40,962 nt of DNA from a virus, in IMG/VR virus record IMGVR_UViG_3300030117_000349, positions 1-40,962 of that record. One strand, written 5' to 3'. Shown here in pieces: positions 12,793-22,521 of the stretch. The first letter of the stretch is position 1, and every line of letters starts with the position of its first letter. The translations under genes were made by a program, and so were the position numbers. The notes beneath the pieces were generated by a model, which did no database searches, had not been told where the DNA came from, and saw only the letters and a program-made list of their open reading frames with translations.

Positions 12793-12932
12793 GTCCAAGA
12801 AAAATGATGGCATCCAAAACTAAAAAGATGAGAGGTGGAGGAATGGCAAAAAAGATGAGAGGCGGTGGCATGGCTAAAAAAATGCGTGGCGGTGGCATGG
12901 CTAAGAAGATGAAAAAAGGTGGTAAAGCCTAA
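12783..12932 (+). CDS. Short repeat protein, (KMRGGGMAK)n
   Basis: A 49-residue protein with AGGAG 6 nt before its ATG. After MAMSPRKMMASKT it consists of three units of KKMRGGGMA and a last degenerate unit KKMKKGG. It contains only Lys, Met, Gly, Ala and Arg in the repeat, is very basic and is probably unstructured. The units differ at third codon positions (for example GGTGGAGGA against GGCGGTGGC) but not in peptide, which argues for selection on the protein. Similar GGGMAKK proteins occur in marine phages; the function is unknown. Confidence 0.7.
   Translation: MAMSPRKMMASKTKKMRGGGMAKKMRGGGMAKKMRGGGMAKKMKKGGKA
12825..12914 (+). repeat. Coding tandem repeat, 27-bp unit
   Basis: About 3.3 copies of a 27-bp unit encode KMRGGGMAK inside the gene at 12783-12932. 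The copies diverge mostly at silent positions (GCA/GCT, GGA/GGC). It is in frame and without spacers, so it is a peptide repeat and not a CRISPR-like array. Confidence 0.75.
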
Positions 12933-13600
12933 TGACAACTTCAAGCTCAACTAATTTTGAATTAGATGTAGCAGAATACATTGAGGAGGCTTTTGAGAGA
13001 TGTGGCTTAGAAGCTAAAACAGGCTACGATTTGCAAACCGCTAGACGTTCTATGAACATCATGTTGGCAGAGTGGGCTAATCGTGGTCTGAATCAATGGA
13101 CAATAGAGCAAAGAACACAAGCTCTAACTGCAAGTGATTCAGAGTATAGTTTGGGCACTGACTTGATTGACATATTGTCCTTAGTTGTAAGGCGAAGTGG
13201 CACAGATTTTACTATGACTAGAATAAGTCGTGACTCTTTTTTGAATCTACCTAATAAAACATCAACTGGTAGACCAACACAGTATTTTTTAGATAGGCAA
13301 ATAACACCTAATTTAAAATTATTTCCTACACCTGAAAACAGTACAGATGTTATTGTTTATGACGCTTTAACACGCATACAAGATGCTGATGCACAAGTAA
13401 ATACTATGGAGATACCCTTTAGGTTTTATCCTTGTCTGACTGCTGGATTGGCTTATTATATAGCCATGAAAAGAGCACCAGATAGAATACAGTTGCTTAA
13501 AACTGTGTATGAAGAAGAGTTTGAAAGAGCTATGGCAGAAGATAGAGATAGATCTGCTTTTAATGTTGTGCCTAAATTAGATTATTATAAGGTAGGTTGA
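12932..13600 (+). CDS. Head-tail adaptor, P22 gp4 / tail tubular A-like
   Basis: A 222-residue protein with the layout of podoviral adaptors that close the portal and connect it to the tail: an N-terminal helical part (DVAEYIEEAFERCGLEAKTG, YDLQTARRSMNIMLAEWANR, GLNQW), a beta-rich centre (SEYSLGTDLIDILSLVVRR, then RPTQYFLDRQITPNLKLFPT) and C-terminal helices (CLTAGLAYYIAMKRAPDRI, LKTVYEEEFERAM). The NxMLxxWxNRGLNxW helix is typical. It overlaps the repeat-protein stop (TAATG) and is followed by two more small head-tail genes. The exact equivalent (gp4 or T7 gp11) cannot be fixed without a structure. Confidence 0.7.
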   Translation: MTTSSSTNFELDVAEYIEEAFERCGLEAKTGYDLQTARRSMNIMLAEWANRGLNQWTIEQRTQALTASDSEYSLGTDLIDILSLVVRRSGTDFTMTRISRDSFLNLPNKTSTGRPTQYFLDRQITPNLKLFPTPENSTDVIVYDALTRIQDADAQVNTMEIPFRFYPCLTAGLAYYIAMKRAPDRIQLLKTVYEEEFERAMAEDRDRSAFNVVPKLDYYKVG

Positions 13601-14091
13601 TGGCTTTTGCTAGTGGTAAATATGCTTATAGAATATCTGATAGATCTGGTTTTAGATATAAAATCAAAGACACTCGTAAAGAGTGGAATGGATCTATCGT
13701 TGGTAAAGATGAGTACGAAGAAAAACATCCACAATTAGAGCCTGCAAATGTAAGAGCTGATAATGAAGCTATAAGAGATGCTAGACCAGATAGAACTGAA
13801 ACAGCAGTTCCTAATTTGTTACCATTAAACGCATTTTCTACAACTGCTAGTTCTGCAACAGTAACAGTTAATGAGCCTAATCACGGCAGATCAACAAGCG
13901 ATACAGTTAGATTTAGAGATGCAATTAGTGTTGGAGGTATAGCTGCTACAACAATTAACTCTGCTTCTGGATTTACAATTACGAATATAGATACGAACAA
14001 TTATTCGTTTCCATCAGGAGTAACAGCAACAATAACACAGAAAGGTGGTGGAGGACTTGCTAGTGCAGGACCAACATCAATTACAAACTAA
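13600..14091 (+). CDS. Virion protein with a beta-sandwich-like domain shared with the large tail protein
   Basis: A 163-residue protein. The ATG at 13600 overlaps the upstream TGA. Residues 1-80 are basic and carry KYAYRISDRSGFRYKIKDTR and EWNGSIVGKDEYEEKHPQL, a pattern I associate with small tail-connector proteins. Residues about 85-160 form a domain (TVTVNEPNHGRSTSDTVRF, then INSASGFTITNIDTNNYSF) that aligns clearly by eye with residues about 108-180 of the protein at 25130-27271. Shared modules of this kind usually contact the same partner in the particle. A tail-completion role is plausible. Confidence 0.65.
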   Translation: MAFASGKYAYRISDRSGFRYKIKDTRKEWNGSIVGKDEYEEKHPQLEPANVRADNEAIRDARPDRTETAVPNLLPLNAFSTTASSATVTVNEPNHGRSTSDTVRFRDAISVGGIAATTINSASGFTITNIDTNNYSFPSGVTATITQKGGGGLASAGPTSITN

Positions 14092-14738
14092 TGAGCTTCA
14101 CACTTGCAACATTAAAAACAGCGATACAAGATTATGCAGATAATAGTGAAACTAGCTTTGTAACAAATCTACCTAACTTTATTAAAGCGGCAGAAGAAAA
14201 AATATTCAAAGGTGTTGATTTAGATATTTTTAGGAAAAATGTCACAAGTGCATTTACATCATCAGATCAATTTTTAACAGTGCCAACTGATTACCTTGCA
14301 TCATTTTCTTTGCAAATAACAACATCTGGGTCTGAAAGTTTTTTACTGCAAAAAGATGTTAATTATTTAAGAGAATACACACCAGCATCCTCAACAACAG
14401 GGCTGCCTAAATATTATGCTAGGTTTGACTCAGACAATTTTATTGTAGCACCAACTCCAGACTCTAATTATACGCTTGAATTACATTATTACTATAGACC
14501 TGCAAGTCTGACTGCAGGAGCAGATGGTGGAACAACATGGTTAAGTACAAACGCACCATTTGCTCTACTTTACGGGTCGCTAATAGAGGCGTATTATTAC
14601 ATGAAAGGTGAGCCAGATGTTATTGCACAGTATGAAAAGAATTATGTTTTTTATTTGCAAAGACTTAAAGATTTAGGGGAAGCAAGAGAAAATGAAGACG
14701 CTTATAGGCAAGGACTACCTAGAGCACCAAGAACATAG
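14091..14738 (+). CDS. Phage adaptor protein (SU10 adaptor-like)
   Basis: A 215-residue protein with an N-terminal helical region (LKTAIQDYADNSETSFVTNL, then PNFIKAAEEKIFKGVDLDIF), a beta-rich centre (DQFLTVPTDYLASFSLQIT, GLPKYYARFDSDNFIVAPTP, YTLELHYYYRPASLT), and C-terminal helices (FALLYGSLIEAYYYMKGEPD, then YEKNYVFYLQRLKDLGEARE). This matches what I know of the adaptor family that binds under the portal of short-tailed phages. Together with the gene at 12932 it would build the neck. The start overlaps the upstream stop (TAATG). Confidence 0.75.
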   Translation: MSFTLATLKTAIQDYADNSETSFVTNLPNFIKAAEEKIFKGVDLDIFRKNVTSAFTSSDQFLTVPTDYLASFSLQITTSGSESFLLQKDVNYLREYTPASSTTGLPKYYARFDSDNFIVAPTPDSNYTLELHYYYRPASLTAGADGGTTWLSTNAPFALLYGSLIEAYYYMKGEPDVIAQYEKNYVFYLQRLKDLGEARENEDAYRQGLPRAPRT

Positions 14739-15911: not shown

Positions 15912-16259
15912 ATGGCAAATACATTTAAATTAGTTTCAAAGGCAGGTGTAACAAGTGCCGATGTTATATATACAGTAGCGAGTTCTACAACGACAGTTCT
16001 ACTTGGAATCATGTTAGGCAATACAACAACAAGTCAAGTTACTGCTACAGTTACAATAGAATCAGATACATCAAATAGATCAGGAGCGAATAACGAAGCC
16101 AACCAAAATGTTGAGCTTGTTACAAATGCACCCATCCCAGTAGGATCATCACTAGAATTATTGGCTGGTAACAAAGTTGTTATGGAAACAACAGACGTAT
16201 TAAAACTTACAGCGAGTGGAGCTACAGATATTGCTGTATCAATAATGGAGATAACTTAA
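15912..16259 (+). CDS. Small beta-rich virion protein
   Basis: A 115-residue protein with a regular beta pattern: ANTFKLVSKAGVTSADVIYT, then TTTVLLGIMLGNTTTSQVTA, QNVELVTNAPIPVGSSLELL and NKVVMETTDVLKLTASGATD. It resembles small jelly-roll-like phage virion proteins of about 110 residues; a paralogous style is seen at 27271-27660 (VPSDADFNAAVV, GEILKVQAA). It ends in an overlap with the next gene; GGAGAT in its last codons can serve as that gene's ribosome binding site. Confidence 0.65.
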   Translation: MANTFKLVSKAGVTSADVIYTVASSTTTVLLGIMLGNTTTSQVTATVTIESDTSNRSGANNEANQNVELVTNAPIPVGSSLELLAGNKVVMETTDVLKLTASGATDIAVSIMEIT

Positions 16260-16708
16260 TGCCCTTTCTTGGTAAAACTCCAGTTACAACTTTTGAGGCT
16301 ACAACTGCTGTACAAAGATTTAATGGCGATGGATCAGATACCACATTTACATTAAGTAGAACAGTAAATTCAGTACAAGATGTACTTGTATCTGTAGATG
16401 GTGTTGTGCAAGATACATCAGCATATACCATACCAGATGGCACAACCTTGACATTTACTGCTGCACCTAGTTCTGGAACTGCAAATATCTTTGTAAATTT
16501 TTTAGCACCACAAACTGGTACAGTTACACCAGCAGATGAGAACAAGGGTAATTTTAAAGCAGGTGGTTTGTTTAGAACTAACGCACAAAACTTAACTGCT
16601 AATACTACAATATTAGCTACAGAAAATGCACAAGTCACTGGAACACTCACTATAGACAGTAGTGTTACATTGACAGTAAACAGTGGTGGAAGGTTGGTCG
16701 TATCGTGA
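16259..16708 (+). CDS. Anchor-like fibre protein of cassette A
   Basis: A 149-residue protein: an N-terminal FLGKTPVTTFEATTAVQRFN, a domain of the kind found at the tail-binding end of many phage fibres (DVLVSVDGVVQDTSAYTI, then TLTFTAAPSSGTANIFVNFL) and a beta-rich C-terminus (TLTIDSSVTLTVNSGGRLVV). The same order (partner domain, then TIDS ... TVTVN ... end) is seen at 19778-20236. Both genes are followed by three short paralogues of the -GDLA family, so I call this the anchor of the first array. Whether it truly binds them is inference. Its stop overlaps the GTG of the next gene. Confidence 0.65.
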   Translation: MPFLGKTPVTTFEATTAVQRFNGDGSDTTFTLSRTVNSVQDVLVSVDGVVQDTSAYTIPDGTTLTFTAAPSSGTANIFVNFLAPQTGTVTPADENKGNFKAGGLFRTNAQNLTANTTILATENAQVTGTLTIDSSVTLTVNSGGRLVVS

Positions 16709-17145
16709 GTACAATAAAAGTAGATACATATCTAACTCGTGGTGGTGCATCAGAGATAGCTATTGATAAACTAAAAGGTGCATCAAGTGCAGCGTCAATG
16801 ACTGTTGTTGGAGAAGGCGGTTCAACCACAACTAACTTACAGCAAGGGTTGGCTAAATGTTGGACACGCACAAGTGGAGATGGTACAAGTTTATTAGATT
16901 CTTTAAATTGTAGTTCAATAGATGACAGGTCAACAGGTCAAGTAGATGTAAATTTTACTAATTCAATGGCTTCTGTAAATTTTTATATATCCCTTACAAT
17001 ACAACAAGAAAGTGGGGGTCTTAATCTTATTTTATCCTCAACAAATGCAACGACAACTGCACAATTTGCTCATGGTACAACAAATACCTCTGTTGCATAT
17101 CAAGACCACGCAATGGGGTCATCAGTACACGGAGACCTTGCATGA
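16705..17145 (+). CDS. GDLA-family fibre cassette protein 1 (array A)
   Basis: A 146-residue protein starting with GTG. Layout shared by the family: an N-terminal strand (STIKVDTYLTRGGASEIAI), the block NLQQGLAKCWTRTSGDG, a DSLNCSSIDDRSTGQ block, a FTNSMASVNFYISL strand, a variable region and the end SSVHGDLA. Most differences from its paralogues lie in the last third, as expected for a receptor-contacting surface. A 24-nt stretch (16842-16865) is nearly identical to one in the gene at 20233. The last codons GGAGACCTTGCATGA also supply the next gene's ribosome binding site and start. Receptor-binding is inferred. Confidence 0.7.
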   Translation: MSTIKVDTYLTRGGASEIAIDKLKGASSAASMTVVGEGGSTTTNLQQGLAKCWTRTSGDGTSLLDSLNCSSIDDRSTGQVDVNFTNSMASVNFYISLTIQQESGGLNLILSSTNATTTAQFAHGTTNTSVAYQDHAMGSSVHGDLA

Positions 17146-17576
17146 GTGAAGTAATACTAGACACAATCACAGGTAAGTCCACTGCAACAACCATAACCAT
17201 TGGCTCAACACCTGTAGTTAGTGCAAGTGCAAACTCTATGACTATTAGAGGTGAGGGTAGCAATCAGACAAGTATTCAGCAAGGGTTGAATAAAGTTTGG
17301 CTTCAATATGACCAATCATCATCAACAGCTATACAAGATAGTTTTAATGTTGCAAGTATTACTGATAACGCAACAGGAAGAGCAACTTCTACATATACTA
17401 ATTCTATGAGTTCAGATAGTTATGCAATAGGAGGTTCTGCTCAAGGAAATGGAATTATAACTTTAGTTTCTGGTGGACCTAACACAGGTAACTTTCTTTG
17501 TATTACTGTATCTAATGGTGGAACTGATACCGACTATGACCATGTTGGACCATCTATACAAGGAGACTTAGCATAA
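17142..17576 (+). CDS. GDLA-family fibre cassette protein 2 (array A)
   Basis: A 144-residue paralogue. Shared blocks: SEVILDTITGKSTATTITIG at the N-terminus, SIQQGLNKVWLQYD, QDSFNVASITDNATGRATST, YTNSMSSDSYAIGG and the end PSIQGDLA. Its start ATG lies within the previous gene's GCATGA and is preceded by that gene's GGAGA. The central variable part (AQGNGIITLVSGGPNTGNF) differs completely from its neighbours in sequence but not in length. Probably a virion surface or fibre-tip protein. Confidence 0.7.
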   Translation: MSEVILDTITGKSTATTITIGSTPVVSASANSMTIRGEGSNQTSIQQGLNKVWLQYDQSSSTAIQDSFNVASITDNATGRATSTYTNSMSSDSYAIGGSAQGNGIITLVSGGPNTGNFLCITVSNGGTDTDYDHVGPSIQGDLA

Positions 17577-17980
17577 TGGCAAACGGAACAATAGCATTTG
17601 ATACATTACAGACAAGTGGACAGATAGAGTCAAGAGCTACAGGTCTTTCTATAGACACTGATTACTTAGTTCATGGTAGTAATAAGGCTTGGACAAACAT
17701 ATTATATACTAGTGCTGCTCCGGGAATACAAGATTCATTTAACGCATCTTCAGTTGCAGATACAACAACAGGTGAATACACAGTGACACTATCAAATAAC
17801 ATGGTAAATGATGATTATGTCTGTGTGTCAAATCAACAAGATTTTGCAGTTGAACATCAATCACCATCATTAGCCACTTCAACATATGCAATTAGAACCA
17901 TAGCAGATTCAAGTGGAGCAAGAGCCGATGTAGGTAACGGAACTGAGTCATATGCACTAATAACTGGAGAACTCGCATGA
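17576..17980 (+). CDS. GDLA-family fibre cassette protein 3 (array A), divergent
   Basis: A 134-residue, more divergent paralogue: ANGTIAFDTLQTSGQIESRA at the start, LVHGSNKAWTNILYTSAAPG (HGSNKAW instead of QQGLAKxW), QDSFNASSVADTTTGEYTVT, LSNNMVNDDYVCVS and the end ALITGELA. It is about 10 residues shorter at the N-terminus, where the other copies carry an extra segment. The GGAGAA in its -GELA codons lies 8 nt before the ATG of the next gene (17977), so the coupling signal holds even though the tetrapeptide has changed. Confidence 0.68.
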   Translation: MANGTIAFDTLQTSGQIESRATGLSIDTDYLVHGSNKAWTNILYTSAAPGIQDSFNASSVADTTTGEYTVTLSNNMVNDDYVCVSNQQDFAVEHQSPSLATSTYAIRTIADSSGARADVGNGTESYALITGELA

Positions 17981-18465
17981 CAATAGAAACACCTGAATTT
18001 CAAGGCACACATCTTTGGGATAGATTGTGTTGGGCAAAAGAAAAGCTAGAGCCACACAGAACAGAATATTGTGTTGTATGGGAAGACCCAGAGACACCTG
18101 ATGAACCTGCAAAGGTTACACATCCTGACCCTAATTGGATGGCTTGTGCATTGCAAGGTGGCATCTTACCACCTGTAGAAGTTTATTGGGAACTCAAGAA
18201 AGATGAAGAGAAGCCTGACTTTGTAAAGCATACAAGAGGTTACTTGTTACACAACACAAAGCCTATTGAAGCAATGACAGAAGAAAGAGCTATAGAGTAT
18301 TTAATTATGAAAGATATTCCACAACATGTGTGGAGAGACTATGATAAAGCAAATAAACCAAGAATGGTTATATGCAAAAAGAATCAACTTCCTAGCACTA
18401 GAGTATGGCGAAATGCTTGGAAGATCAACGAAGAACTAACCATACAGAAAGATGAGGTGGCTTAA
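17977..18465 (+). CDS. Conserved phage protein, possible fibre-assembly factor
   Basis: A 162-residue, Trp- and acid-rich protein quite unlike the fibre genes around it: LWDRLCWAKEKLEPHRTEYC, then VVWEDPETPDEPAKVTHPDP, NWMACALQGGILPPVEVYWE and the C-terminal NQLPSTRVWRNAWKINEEL. The motif PSTRVWRNAW is closely matched by PSDRHFRNAW near the N-terminus of the next protein. Its soluble, non-repetitive composition suits a chaperone rather than a structural fibre, but no family is identified. It lies between the two cassette arrays. Confidence 0.6.
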   Translation: MTIETPEFQGTHLWDRLCWAKEKLEPHRTEYCVVWEDPETPDEPAKVTHPDPNWMACALQGGILPPVEVYWELKKDEEKPDFVKHTRGYLLHNTKPIEAMTEERAIEYLIMKDIPQHVWRDYDKANKPRMVICKKNQLPSTRVWRNAWKINEELTIQKDEVA

Positions 18466-18837
18466 ATGGCAACAACAAACATAGTAGATAAAGATGGTAA
18501 TACTATTGCAGCATCAGATGCAACAGTGCCATCAGATAGACATTTCAGAAATGCTTGGACATTGTCTGGCAAAACAATAACGGAAGATCTAGCTGAATCT
18601 AAAAAAATATTTCAAGATAAAATTAGAGAAGTTAGAACTCCGTTATTAGCAGAAGAAGATGTAGTCTATATGAAAGCGTTAGAAGCTGGAGATAGTTCTG
18701 CACAAGCAGCTAGTGTTACAAAGAAAAAAGCATTAAGAGATGCACCTGCTGCAAAAGCAATAACAGATGCAGACACTATTGCTAAATTAAAAGCCGCTTG
18801 GGATACAAGTGTATTAGGTGACAGTCCATACGCATAA
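18466..18837 (+). CDS. Probable tail assembly chaperone-like protein
   Basis: A 123-residue protein: an N-terminal polar strand (VDKDGNTIAASDATVPSDRH), the motif PSDRHFRNAWTLSGKTITED, and an all-helical C-terminal part (LAESKKIFQDKIREVRTPLL, then AEEDVVYMKALEAGDSSAQA, KKKALRDAPAAKAI). Phage proteins with RxFRxAW followed by helices of this sort commonly sit beside fibre genes and are often described as tail-fibre assembly or tail assembly chaperone-like; I make the call on that basis only. Its stop is 10 nt before the S74 fibre. Confidence 0.6.
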   Translation: MATTNIVDKDGNTIAASDATVPSDRHFRNAWTLSGKTITEDLAESKKIFQDKIREVRTPLLAEEDVVYMKALEAGDSSAQAASVTKKKALRDAPAAKAITDADTIAKLKAAWDTSVLGDSPYA

Positions 18838-18847
18838 GGAGTAACGG

Positions 18848-19774
18848 ATGGCTTTAACAAAAGTAGGCAAAGAGGGTATTGCTGGCATATCTAATTCTAG
18901 TGATGCTACTGCTATAACTATAGATAGTTCAGAAAAAGTAGGAATAGGGCAAACTACTCCAGTAAGAAGATTGCATATTAAAGATACTTCTGCTGATATG
19001 TATATTGGCTTAGAGGGTGGCACATCAAATAATGTTGGTATTCTTATGGGTGATACTGACAATCATACACTAAGTAGAATAAGACATGATAATTCTGATA
19101 ATGCCCTTGAATTTCATACAAATGAAACAGAGCGGGCTAGATTTAATTCAACTGGTTATTTTCATGTTTCACAAGATATATCCGACTCTGAATTTTACAA
19201 TGTCACTCACACTAATTCATTTTCACATTCTAACACACAACCAGTATTATTTCTTGAAAACTCAGGTAATGGTAATGTTTATGGTCTTGGTATAGATTTT
19301 AGTGATGCGACACCAGATAATAACACTTCTTATTTTATGGTGTGTCAAGATGCTACAGCAGTTAGACTAAACATTTGGTCAGATGGTGATATTCAAAACC
19401 ATGATAATTCCTATGGTGCATTGTCTGATGAAAAACTTAAAGAGCAAATTGCAGATGCTTCATCACAATGGGAAGATATAAAAGCATTAAAAGTTCGTAA
19501 GTTTAAAATGAAAGAAGATGTTGCTAAAGGCGATAGTGATGACCATTGGAGATTAGGAGTTGTTGCTCAAGAAGTAGAAACAGCAGGAATGAAAGGTCTT
19601 GTAAAAGATAATCCAGAGTTAGTTACAAATTCTGATGGTGAACTTGAAAAAAGTGGTACAACAACAAAGTCAGTTAAATACTCAATACTCTATATGAAAG
19701 CAGTCAAAGCATTACAAGAAGCTATGACTAGAATAGAAACACTTGAAGCAGAAGTCAAAGCACTGAAAGGTTAA
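18848..19774 (+). CDS. Tail fibre/spike with C-terminal S74 intramolecular chaperone
   Basis: A 308-residue protein. Residues 1-185 are a beta-rich fibre (MALTKVGKEGIAGISNSS, VGIGQTTPVRRLHIKDTS). From about residue 190 comes a peptidase S74 domain: SDEKLKEQI gives the expected Ser193/Lys198 pair (serine and lysine five residues apart), GVVAQEVE follows at about 237, and the end is a helical coiled-coil (KALQEAMTRIETLEAEVKAL). S74 domains help three chains fold into a trimer and then cut themselves off at the serine. AGGAG precedes the ATG. The fibre body is short, so it probably makes a small spike. Confidence 0.85.
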   Translation: MALTKVGKEGIAGISNSSDATAITIDSSEKVGIGQTTPVRRLHIKDTSADMYIGLEGGTSNNVGILMGDTDNHTLSRIRHDNSDNALEFHTNETERARFNSTGYFHVSQDISDSEFYNVTHTNSFSHSNTQPVLFLENSGNGNVYGLGIDFSDATPDNNTSYFMVCQDATAVRLNIWSDGDIQNHDNSYGALSDEKLKEQIADASSQWEDIKALKVRKFKMKEDVAKGDSDDHWRLGVVAQEVETAGMKGLVKDNPELVTNSDGELEKSGTTTKSVKYSILYMKAVKALQEAMTRIETLEAEVKALKG

Positions 19775-19777
19775 ATA

Positions 19778-20236
19778 ATGCCATATATAGGTCGTTCAGA
19801 AAATTTTGGTGTAAGAAGTAGGTTTCAGTATCAGGCAACTGCAAGTCAGACTAGCTTTAGTGGATCAGATGCCAACTCACTATCACTAAGTTACACTGAT
19901 AGTCTGTACATGGATGTATATCAAAATGGTATTTTGTTAGTGCCGGGAGATGACTATACTGCAACTACAGGCACAACTGTCGTACTTGTACAAGCAGCAA
20001 GTTTGAATGACATCGTAGAAATGGTTGTTTATGATGTATTTACTGTAGCAGACAGTTATACAAAATCAGAAGCTGATACAAGATACCCATTTAAGGGTAA
20101 CAATAGTATTATAAGATTAAACGGACAGACAATAAGTGCAGACATTACAATAGATAGTGATGAGAATGGTGTGAGTGCAGGTCCTATAACACAGTCAGCA
20201 ACAGTTACTGTTAATGGCTACTGGAGTATTGTATGA
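19778..20236 (+). CDS. Anchor-like fibre protein of cassette B
   Basis: A 152-residue protein: PYIGRSENFGVRSRFQYQAT at the N-terminus, a fibre-type domain (YMDVYQNGILLVPGDDYTAT, then GTTVVLVQAASLNDIVEMVV), the short helix SYTKSEADTRYPFKG, and a beta end (TISADITIDSDENGVSAGPI, TVTVNGYWSIV). It parallels the gene at 16259 in having the same domain order and in being followed by three -GDLA paralogues. Its last codons (TGGAGT for Trp-Ser) provide a Shine-Dalgarno for the overlapping ATG at 20233. Confidence 0.68.
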   Translation: MPYIGRSENFGVRSRFQYQATASQTSFSGSDANSLSLSYTDSLYMDVYQNGILLVPGDDYTATTGTTVVLVQAASLNDIVEMVVYDVFTVADSYTKSEADTRYPFKGNNSIIRLNGQTISADITIDSDENGVSAGPITQSATVTVNGYWSIV

Positions 20237-20667
20237 CGAGTCAATTAAATGTAGATACTATTGTAGATAAAGCAGGTTCAGGTGGCACGAATGTAAAGAT
20301 AGGTAATACCTCAACCTATGTGTCTGATGGTGGTAGTGCTACACAGAATACTGTGCAAGGGTTGGCTAAATATTGGACAAATCTTGATGGTACAGGAACA
20401 ATAACAACTAGAGATAGTTTCAATCACGCTAGTGAAACAGACCATGACACAGGTAAATATACTCTAACTTTAACTAATGCAATGTCAAATGGCAATTATG
20501 CTATTACAATGTCTACAGGTGGCAGTTCATCTGGTAGTGGCAGAATTTTTGATGATAACACAGTTAGAACAACATCAGCATTTAAAGTAGTTGGTCAATC
20601 TTTAGATAATGCTGCTGTAATGGACATAGATAATTGGAATTTTGCTATTCATGGAGATTTAGCATAA
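20233..20667 (+). CDS. GDLA-family fibre cassette protein 4 (array B)
   Basis: A 144-residue paralogue: TSQLNVDTIVDKAGSGGTNV, then TVQGLAKYWTNLDGTGTI, RDSFNHASETDHDTGKYTLT, LTNAMSNGNYAITM and the end FAIHGDLA. It is closest to the gene at 16705 around the AKxW block, with 23 of 24 identical bases at 20355-20378. Its stop overlaps the next ATG (GCATAATGG), and GGAGAT in the -GDLA codons is the next ribosome binding site. Confidence 0.7.
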   Translation: MTSQLNVDTIVDKAGSGGTNVKIGNTSTYVSDGGSATQNTVQGLAKYWTNLDGTGTITTRDSFNHASETDHDTGKYTLTLTNAMSNGNYAITMSTGGSSSGSGRIFDDNTVRTTSAFKVVGQSLDNAAVMDIDNWNFAIHGDLA

Positions 20668-21074
20668 TGGCTAGTGAACTTAAAGTAGATAAATTTACAG
20701 GTGTAACCACAGCAGGTTCTATACTTGTTACAGGTGAAGGCAATAGTACAACAACTAATCTGCAACAAGGGTTGGCAAAGGCATGGGCTTGTTTTGTGCA
20801 AGATACAAGCCATACTTTTCACGATTCTTTTAATATGACTTCATTGACAGATAGTGGTGCTGGTTTTTCTGCTGTTACTTACACTAATAATTTTAATAAT
20901 GACGATTATGCTAGTCCGGGTTTAAGTGGTAAAGGTGGTGCTAGATTGTATCTTGATTCAGTTGGAGACGCAGGAAAAGCTACAAGTTCTATGCAACTAT
21001 ATGTAGCAAATACTAGTGGCACAGGAACAGATGCCGATGATGTTAATATTAGTGGTTTAGGAGACCTCGCATAA
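20667..21074 (+). CDS. GDLA-family fibre cassette protein 5 (array B)
   Basis: A 135-residue paralogue; I take the ATG at 20667, not the longer frame from 20634, because homology starts at MASELKVDKFTG and the ATG overlaps the upstream stop. Shared blocks: NLQQGLAKAWACFVQDTS, HDSFNMTSLTDSGAGFSAVT, YTNNFNNDDYASPG and the end ISGLGDLA. The N-terminal VTGEGNSTTTNLQQG resembles VVGEGGSTTTNLQQG in the gene at 16705, so these two are probably the closest full-length pair. Confidence 0.7.
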   Translation: MASELKVDKFTGVTTAGSILVTGEGNSTTTNLQQGLAKAWACFVQDTSHTFHDSFNMTSLTDSGAGFSAVTYTNNFNNDDYASPGLSGKGGARLYLDSVGDAGKATSSMQLYVANTSGTGTDADDVNISGLGDLA

Positions 21075-21451
21075 TGGCTAGTATATTAAGAGTAGACACA
21101 TTAACAGATGCAAGTAGTAATAATAGTATAGCAACGAGTGTTGTAGCAGGTGGTAGTGCGAAAGTTACCTCTTCTACAAATGCCGCAGGAACAACTATAA
21201 ATGGTTCTACAAACGTAAGTTCCTTAACAGATTCTGCCACAGGTAAACAAGTTTTAAATTTAAGCTCTTCTTTTGCTAACACTAATTATACACCTATTTG
21301 TGGTGTGGGTAACAAAGACGATGGTAATGCTAGAGATACAATGATACGTTCTGTAGCTACAGGTTCATATGCAACAAATATTTATAGCACGATTAGTAGT
21401 GCCTTTTCTGATGATGCAACATCAAGCACAGCACACGGAGACCTAGCATGA
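21074..21451 (+). CDS. GDLA-family fibre cassette protein 6 (array B), lacks the QQGLAKxW block
   Basis: A 125-residue divergent paralogue: ASILRVDTLTDASSNNSIAT at the start, then directly INGSTNVSSLTDSATGKQVL and LSSSFANTNYTPICG, ending STAHGDLA. Compared with the others it lacks the 20-residue QQGLAKxW block, so it is an internally deleted or alternative form. The -GDLA codons GGAGACCTAGCATGA again serve the next gene, the large fibre at 21448. Confidence 0.68.
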   Translation: MASILRVDTLTDASSNNSIATSVVAGGSAKVTSSTNAAGTTINGSTNVSSLTDSATGKQVLNLSSSFANTNYTPICGVGNKDDGNARDTMIRSVATGSYATNIYSTISSAFSDDATSSTAHGDLA

Positions 21452-22521
21452 CCAAAGCAGCAGAATTAGCAAAGATGGGTGAAGTCCTAACCAATAGTCA
21501 GATTGGTGGGCGAAGGAATATGATTATTAATGGTGCTATGAGTGTTGCAAAGAGAGGAACAAGTCAGGCAAGTATTACATCAACTGGCTACTACACCATA
21601 GACAGATGGCAAGTAGTAAATACTAATGGTGGTACATGGACAATGAGCCAAGATACAGATGTGCCAACTGGTGAAGGTTTTGCAAACTCATTAAAGATGG
21701 ATTGCACAACTGCCGATACAAGTCTTGGTGCGTCAGACCATTTATATGTAAGGACAAAACTTGAATCACAAGATTGCCAAAACATGAAAAAAGGCACATC
21801 AAATGCAGAAAAAGTTACTCTTAGATTTTGGGTTAAATCAAGTAAAACAGGAACACACATTGTAGAACTTTTAGATAATGACAATAGTAGATTTGTTTCT
21901 TTAGCCTACACAATATCTTCTGCTGATACTTGGGAAAATCACACATTAACATTTCCTGCTGATACAACAGGAGCTTTTGCAGATGACAATGGTGTTGGTT
22001 TAGGTATTCATTGGTATATGGCAGCAGGGTCAACATACACAAGTGGCACTTTAGGAACTACTTGGAATACTACTCAAGCAAATAGAGCAGTAGGACAAGT
22101 TAATGTAGCAGATAGCACAGACAATAATTGGTATTTAACTGGAGTACAACTAGAAGTAGGCGAACAAGCCACACCATTTGAGCATAGGTCATTTGGGGAA
22201 GAACTAAAATTGTGTCAAAGATATTTTAAAAGAATAGAAGTAGGAAATAATACAAGAATTAGCACTTCTGCATATGCAGACACAACAACAAGAGCAAGAT
22301 TTGTAATTCATCATGACCCAGAAATGAGACAAGCACCGACTCTTACAGAGGTTAATGTTGATTTAGATGGACAAGATTTATCAGCTATCGCCACTGCTGG
22401 GTCAAATGATTTGAGTGAAGCTATAATTACTAGAAGTTCTGGCTCACATTCAGTTAATGATATTATACAAGTTCATACTAGTAGTAATACAGCAACATTA
22501 GACTTTGATTCGGAGCTTTAA
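21448..22521 (+). CDS. Large tail fibre / receptor-binding protein with CBM-like region
   Basis: A 357-residue protein: a short N-terminal helix (TKAAELAKMGEVLTNSQIG), then GRRNMIINGAMSVAKRGTSQ, the hallmark of phage fibres with a galactose-binding-like carbohydrate-binding fold (TIDRWQVVNTNGGTWTMSQD, LRFWVKSSKTGTHIVELLD, then WYLTGVQLEVGEQATPFEHR), and a C-terminal EELKLCQRYFKRIEVG followed by a variable beta region. The EVGxxATPFEHRxFxEELxLCQRYF stretch is widespread in marine phage fibres. It is the last gene of the coupled chain that begins at 19778 and probably carries the main sugar-binding surface. Confidence 0.75.
   Translation: MTKAAELAKMGEVLTNSQIGGRRNMIINGAMSVAKRGTSQASITSTGYYTIDRWQVVNTNGGTWTMSQDTDVPTGEGFANSLKMDCTTADTSLGASDHLYVRTKLESQDCQNMKKGTSNAEKVTLRFWVKSSKTGTHIVELLDNDNSRFVSLAYTISSADTWENHTLTFPADTTGAFADDNGVGLGIHWYMAAGSTYTSGTLGTTWNTTQANRAVGQVNVADSTDNNWYLTGVQLEVGEQATPFEHRSFGEELKLCQRYFKRIEVGNNTRISTSAYADTTTRARFVIHHDPEMRQAPTLTEVNVDLDGQDLSAIATAGSNDLSEAIITRSSGSHSVNDIIQVHTSSNTATLDFDSEL

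Follow-up and report, generated by a model that had tools for sequence, protein, structure and literature searches.

We consider it probable that the fibre region of this marine bacteriophage encodes a set of receptor-binding proteins addressed to particular slots, the heads of which come from a large common pool and are exchanged at short borders of conserved sequence. The window, meaning the whole stretch of DNA analysed, is a virus record of 40,962 bases, and the genes of the region, at 16259-21451, are all on the + strand. Each array would consist of one anchor protein on the short tail and three separately encoded small fibres. As judged from sequence, each small fibre protein is a position-specific N-terminal tag of about 30-50 residues followed by a head of about 95 residues; the tag would be an address fitting one place only (A1, A2, A3, B1, B2 or B3), and the head a receptor-binding part usable by any slot. 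Heads would be swapped among slots and among phages by recombination at the QQGLAK-coding border (5') and the GDLA-stop border (3'), and the outcome would be relatives with common tags but different combinations of heads.

The reading frames of all genes of the region are open at the coordinates below, mostly with stop-to-start overlaps (ATGA, GTGA or TAATG), and the order is anchor A, three short genes, the genes at 17977 and 18466, the S74 spike, anchor B, three short genes and the gene at 21448. The start of the fifth short gene is the ATG at 20667 and not that of the longer TTG frame at 20634.

16259-16708, + strand, anchor A (149 aa), with a T7 gp17-like N-terminal domain and a C-terminal stretch common with anchor B
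16705-17145, + strand, slot A1, tag 16705-16857, head 16858-17142
16842-16866, + strand, 5' head-border DNA repeat, family D1, with further copies at 17279, 20355 and 20765
17123-17145, + strand, 3' head-border DNA repeat coding for -GDLA-stop, families D2 and D4, with further copies at 17554, 17958, 20645, 21052 and 21429
17142-17576, + strand, slot A2, tag 17142-17294, head from 17295
17576-17980, + strand, slot A3, tag 17576-17686, head from 17687
17977-18465, + strand, gene 17977, for a conserved protein of 162 aa, directly 3' of A3 in relatives
18466-18837, + strand, gene 18466, for a conserved protein of 123 aa, phrog_20196
18848-19774, + strand, middle slot (M), N-terminus MALTKV.., the head here being an S74 chaperone-type spike (PF13884)
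19778-20236, + strand, anchor B (152 aa), with relatives in 64 phage records and a C-terminus common with anchor A
20233-20667, + strand, slot B1, tag 20233-20370, head from 20371
20667-21074, + strand, slot B2, tag 20667-20780, head from 20781
21074-21451, + strand, slot B3, tag 21074-21163, head from 21164
21448-22521, + strand, terminal slot (T), N-terminus MTKAAELAKMGEVL.. and then a larger variable body, phrog_4492 tail fiber

An earlier note on this DNA had described two anchors, each followed by three paralogous short fibre genes, with an S74 spike between the arrays. Reading frames, alignment and family matches bear out the arrays, and a PF13884 match (E 1.1e-9) in 18848..19774 the spike. 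The record also encodes SU10-type portal and adaptor proteins (PF23899, E 1.2e-16, and PF24175, E 2.4e-25), which makes it probable that the phage is short-tailed.

The six short proteins are 125-146 aa in length, and their alignment has 12 invariant columns, with 25-37% identity to the first protein. The similarity among them that the note had claimed is not due to chance, because all six match one family, phrog_11355 "tail fiber protein" (E 8e-5 to 2e-17); a search of solved structures with a profile of the six gave chance matches only. The QQGLAKxW block is absent from one of them as described, this being 21074, where the aligned K is still present. The C-terminal -G[DE]LA is likewise there, -GDLA being usual and near-invariant (entropy of 0.16 bits over the last four residues) and 17576 having GELA. 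The copies were also said to vary mainly in the last third. This holds along the head, where entropy rises from 1.9 bits at residues 61-92 to 3.4 bits at residues 93-130, but on a larger scale everything beyond the K, the whole head, is replaced.

Whole-head replacement is seen in a comparison set of about 230 related viral loci, mostly fragments and sampled by similarity. Viral contigs were searched for such loci with the adaptor and two short proteins as queries. The short queries were single slot-1 proteins, as no stretch of the six-sequence alignment is conserved enough for a search, and a second sample, retrieved with gene 17977, served to check for the bias that this choice brings. In an alignment of 115 trios one lysine is conserved in 338 of the 345 proteins. 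Before it, mean identity is 0.459 for proteins in the same position and 0.245 for those in different positions; after it the values are 0.259 and 0.257. For a nearest-neighbour test 111 trios (333 proteins) were assigned to the six slots A1-A3 and B1-B3. The nearest neighbour in another contig occupied the same slot in 329 of 333 cases for tags as against 107 of 333 for heads, with 16.8% expected by chance, and for heads with a best match below 60% identity the same-slot figure is 11-20%. The border between tag and head, located from one alignment, is a single residue, the K of QQGLAK, and from the next residue onwards same-slot and different-slot identities are within 0.02 of each other. When slots were permuted within genomes the tag effect was 0.397, against a shuffle maximum of 0.062, and the head effect 0.007, against a maximum of 0.004; the latter is small but not zero, as is expected because some heads are co-inherited. 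The modular fibre set in two arrays, with domain exchange and variation toward the C-terminus, is thus supported, and the exchange goes further than had been proposed, as it involves complete heads, at all six positions, between phages and with a one-residue border.

The movement of heads can be followed in individual cases. The head of 16705 (A1) is found on B1 tags in two loci, L090 and L091, with 99% and 98% identity, and on an A2 tag in L092 with 97% identity, and the DNA similarity of the moved head starts at the QQGLAK codons and ends at the GDLA-stop. The phage of L090 and L091 has different surrounding genes and a very short anchor B; anchor A was not found in it. There are 50 pairs of heads that are at least 80% alike. 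Eleven of them, all same-slot pairs, have been inherited together with the adjacent heads, and of the other 39, in which the neighbouring heads differ, 21 are in different slots, the pairs not all being independent events. The strongest direct DNA repeats in the window are the two head borders. In the sister locus L013, with an adaptor 98% identical, nucleotide identity to the window is 78-92% for tags and 87-95% for core genes as against 49-55% for heads, and slots A1 and M carry proteins of different kinds in the two.

The note had spoken of a duplicated system. Heads within a genome are not more alike than those of different genomes (mean identity 0.253 and 0.258), and none of 459 within-genome pairs exceeds 60%, which speaks against recent duplication within the genome. 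As there is no within-genome excess of similarity, the set would have been filled from a pool and not by recent duplication, and old common descent is visible only in the tags and in the C-termini of the two anchors. The 333 heads fall into 291 clusters at 70% identity, and the Chao1 estimate of the number of heads is about 1,475, a rough lower bound.

The number of slots in an array is close to constant. A profile of the six proteins found 577 ORFs in 162 fetched loci, with at most one domain per ORF, and runs of adjacent members in the complete deduplicated contexts (n=121) were of three in 84 cases, one in 33, two in 3 and five in 1; several of the single-member runs that were mapped are arrays with a different protein in one position. 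From anchor A to 17977 there are three slots in 59 of 59 arrays, of which 46 have members in all three and 13 have one slot replaced; in four of the latter an additional gene of about 77-108 aa adjoins the replacement. From anchor B to the terminal gene there are 42 arrays with three members and three more consistent with the rule. Six apparent anchor-B matches among the fetched loci are without members. In the sample fetched with 17977, 39 of 41 anchored arrays have three slots (26 with all members, 13 with one replaced), the exceptions being one four-member and one single-gene array. The note had suggested counting copy number across viral contigs, and it hardly departs from three per array. 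In two freshwater cyanophages, Nostoc phage Nsp-JY18 and Microcystis phage Mel-JY33, a protein that has the anchor C-terminus is likewise followed by exactly three short genes and these by relatives of 17977 and 18466. The fixed number could in part be a matter of inheritance.

Anchor A matches PF03906 (E 1.6e-6, 28.3 bits against a cut-off of 25.2) and also phrog_18673 tail fiber, and it probably attaches in the manner of the T7 fibre N-terminus. Its matches among solved structures were antibody light chains only, with weak E-values, and we take these to be chance. Anchor B (19778) has no PF03906 match, and many of its relatives in the 64 phage records are annotated as tail fibre. When the two anchors are aligned, as the note had advised, their C-terminal parts prove to be related (98% probability, E 7.6e-14). 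The common stretch of about 45 residues, at about 16556-16705 in anchor A, lies directly before slot 1, and we propose it as a candidate socket for the tags.

However, the A tags may dock on something other than the anchor. In a test limited to 31 arrays with shared ancestry, distances for 17977 covary with those of the A tags (Mantel rho 0.56 for A1, p 0.001) and the A-array tags covary among themselves (rho 0.60 for A2-A3), whereas covariation of anchor A with the tags is weak (rho 0.20); heads covary with nothing tested, rho for the A1 and A2 heads being -0.09. Because the A tags covary more with 17977 than with anchor A, 17977 may help to place the tags, and is perhaps an assembly factor or docking partner for them. 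It has 67% mean column identity over 48 sequences, and 18466 travels with it in related loci. The suggestion that the two are chaperone-like finds no support in Pfam, PHROGs or NCBIfam, nor, for 17977, in a fold search, which gave no match; a scan of genome contigs with 18466 gave no relative.

A small member head occupies the M position in L013, L220 and Puniceispirillum phage HMO-2011, and in L220 also the position of the terminal protein 21448, which matches phrog_4492 tail fiber (E 1e-60).

An AlphaFold2 model of 20233 has a confident beta-rich head, where pLDDT is above 90 for most positions beyond residue 50; confidence is low for the tag, which is predicted to be disordered when alone. 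The head fold has no significant match among solved structures, the best being phage AP22 fibre gp53 (E 0.11), and has 68 significant relatives among predicted viral structures, several of them inside long cyanophage tail fibres. Of the proteins that fill replaced slots, several among those tested have matches to the C-terminal portions of tail fibres and tailspikes; tail-fibre assembly families are matched by two genes that accompany them, gp38 and gp30 of HMO-2011. Since the position accepts recognised fibre C-termini, this is the best evidence for the small heads as receptor-binding parts, a putative function which we infer from their company and interchangeability. Dunaliella viridis virus SI2 has one protein of 491 aa that ends in a member head and is followed by relatives of 17977 and 18466, so the separate parts exist fused elsewhere. 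Heads of the S74, spike and C1q types form homotrimers, and because such heads can fill one slot alone we favour a separate homotrimer for each slot. All slots would be on one virion, and several binding specificities on one particle, as the note had it, are plausible.

Three other arrangements of the proteins have to be considered. The three genes of an array could encode the three chains of an obligate heterotrimer continuing a trimeric anchor, the slots being chain positions. This would account for the near-strict number of three, the three different tags, the translational overlap and the covarying tags, and the three non-equivalent places of the N-termini in an SU10 fibre trimer (PMC9509320) would give a reason for the three tags. 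However, the heads of one array are uncorrelated, and an S74-, spike- or C1q-type head can fill one slot while its partners keep small heads, and we think a heterotrimer unlikely. A little less likely still is that these are ordinary paralogous tail fibres, with the tag merely an inherited N-terminus and no addressing of slots. Phage fibres in general have a conserved N-terminus and vary at the C-terminus (PMC10684548), but here six N-termini keep a fixed order over diverse phages while heads cross slots, and something must keep the tags apart. Less likely again is a chain of beads, with the three proteins stacked head to tail on the anchor and each tag on the C-terminus of the previous head. 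The near-invariant -GDLA of all small heads is a possible common docking site, and the gp81 trimers of Anabaena phage A-1(L) do join by N-terminal hairpins (PMC10966104), but a universal site would need no slot-specific tags, and downstream tags are unchanged after a foreign preceding head, as in L013.

The extreme variation in the C-terminal part of heads might also suggest a built-in generator, either mutagenesis driven by a reverse transcriptase or an invertible segment. Against this, heads differ as whole sequences with indels, the record, itself possibly incomplete, has no reverse transcriptase (PF00078) of a diversity-generating retroelement, and its inverted repeats are two weak pairs unrelated to heads, neither being at the head borders; we regard such a generator as highly improbable.

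Slot-addressed fibres with exchangeable heads remain our preferred reading. With rather less assurance we lean towards a fuller form of it, a plug-and-play turret in which each of six to eight fixed addresses (A1-A3, middle, B1-B3 and terminal) would draw its head independently of the others. The pool, common to the whole population, would number well over a thousand interchangeable heads that recombine at a one-residue protein border, and phages otherwise almost identical would carry different sets of host-binding heads.

With regard to known systems, SU10 has long fibres on the adaptor and short fibres on the nozzle (PMC9509320), and by analogy the two arrays may replace these two sets. Ackermannviridae are known to have branched sets of spikes that assemble through N-terminal domains (PMC11414711, PMC8825819), and in them a receptor domain has been transferred by recombination to a different spike (PMC11414711). 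CBA120 TSP1-4 and kuttervirus S117 resemble the present case in that several of their receptor-binding proteins combine a conserved N-terminal domain for assembly with a C-terminal receptor domain that can be exchanged. However, theirs are large enzymatic spikes joined by gp10-like XD and TD domains, whereas here, as read from genes alone, there are proteins of 125-146 aa with short tags, exactly three per anchor and in two arrays; gp10-like XD domains gave no Pfam, PHROGs or NCBIfam match in the anchors or short members. HMO-2011 (gp41-gp28) has the same order of anchors, slots and two conserved genes, in a region annotated only as tail fibre or hypothetical proteins, and differs in having other heads in slots A2 and B2 (C1q-type in B2) and assembly chaperones.

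The PF03906 match of anchor A is to the N-terminal domain of the T7 gp17 fibre, and anchor B resembles part of the long fibres of pelagiphages and roseophages, but in T7 and the pelagiphages the anchor domain is in one long fibre and here the protein ends after about 150 aa. The neck fibre of A-1(L) has short separate trimers, as this phage would, and couples them via N-terminal hairpins (PMC10966104), but is made of many copies of one bead on the neck with no slot-specific tags. Mosaicism of receptor-binding proteins, with a near-identical N-terminus and an unrelated C-terminal receptor domain (PMC10684548), has been described gene by gene and not as an address set with a shared pool of heads, and an abundance of fibre and C1q genes has been reported for marine phage islands (PMC3909814). 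Phage fibres are already known to swap heads. What seems to be new is the strict triplet, the presence of slot tags on genes that are very short, and the crossing of slots by heads, no description of them having been found in the literature searched, which included few subscription journals.

Swaps of heads probably change which bacterial surfaces the virus can grip. If our interpretation is correct, the tags would be a natural short peptide address system of use in building multi-headed binders. Because tags and heads can both be recognised from sequence alone, head combinations could be followed through metagenomic data and related to hosts. The combination of small, independently exchanged heads would, on this reading, set the host range of a common group of marine phages, and the continual replacement of phage-host pairs in the sea would have a direct molecular route.

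The larger genes at 18848-19774 (the middle slot, here an S74 spike) and 21448-22521 (the terminal slot, fibre-like) have conserved N-termini, beginning MALTKV.. and MTKAAEL.. respectively, and variable bodies, and in other phages the same positions carry the heads of the small tail-fibre family. These two genes behave like further slots of the arrays.

Some of the heads seem, from family matches, to travel with their own chaperone, as in HMO-2011 (L007) two small genes adjoining replaced slots, those with another protein, match tail-fibre assembly families:
L007 6596-6916, gp38
L007 9904-10149, gp30

A member head is also present in Dunaliella viridis virus SI2, for which the record gives an algal host and which has a genome that looks like that of a bacteriophage:
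L235 5424-6899, tailed-phage fibre module with a member head at its end

The SU10 adaptor family (PF24175) has matches in two genes of the window that lie next to each other, and it is unusual to find such an adaptor-like gene twice:
12932-13600, E 2.4e-15
14091-14738, E 2.4e-25

The product of the conserved gene 17977-18465, directly after slot A3, may have a role for fibres more generally, as its relatives are found also in phages without small-fibre arrays, where they sit directly 3' of a 15912-like gene or a long fibre gene.
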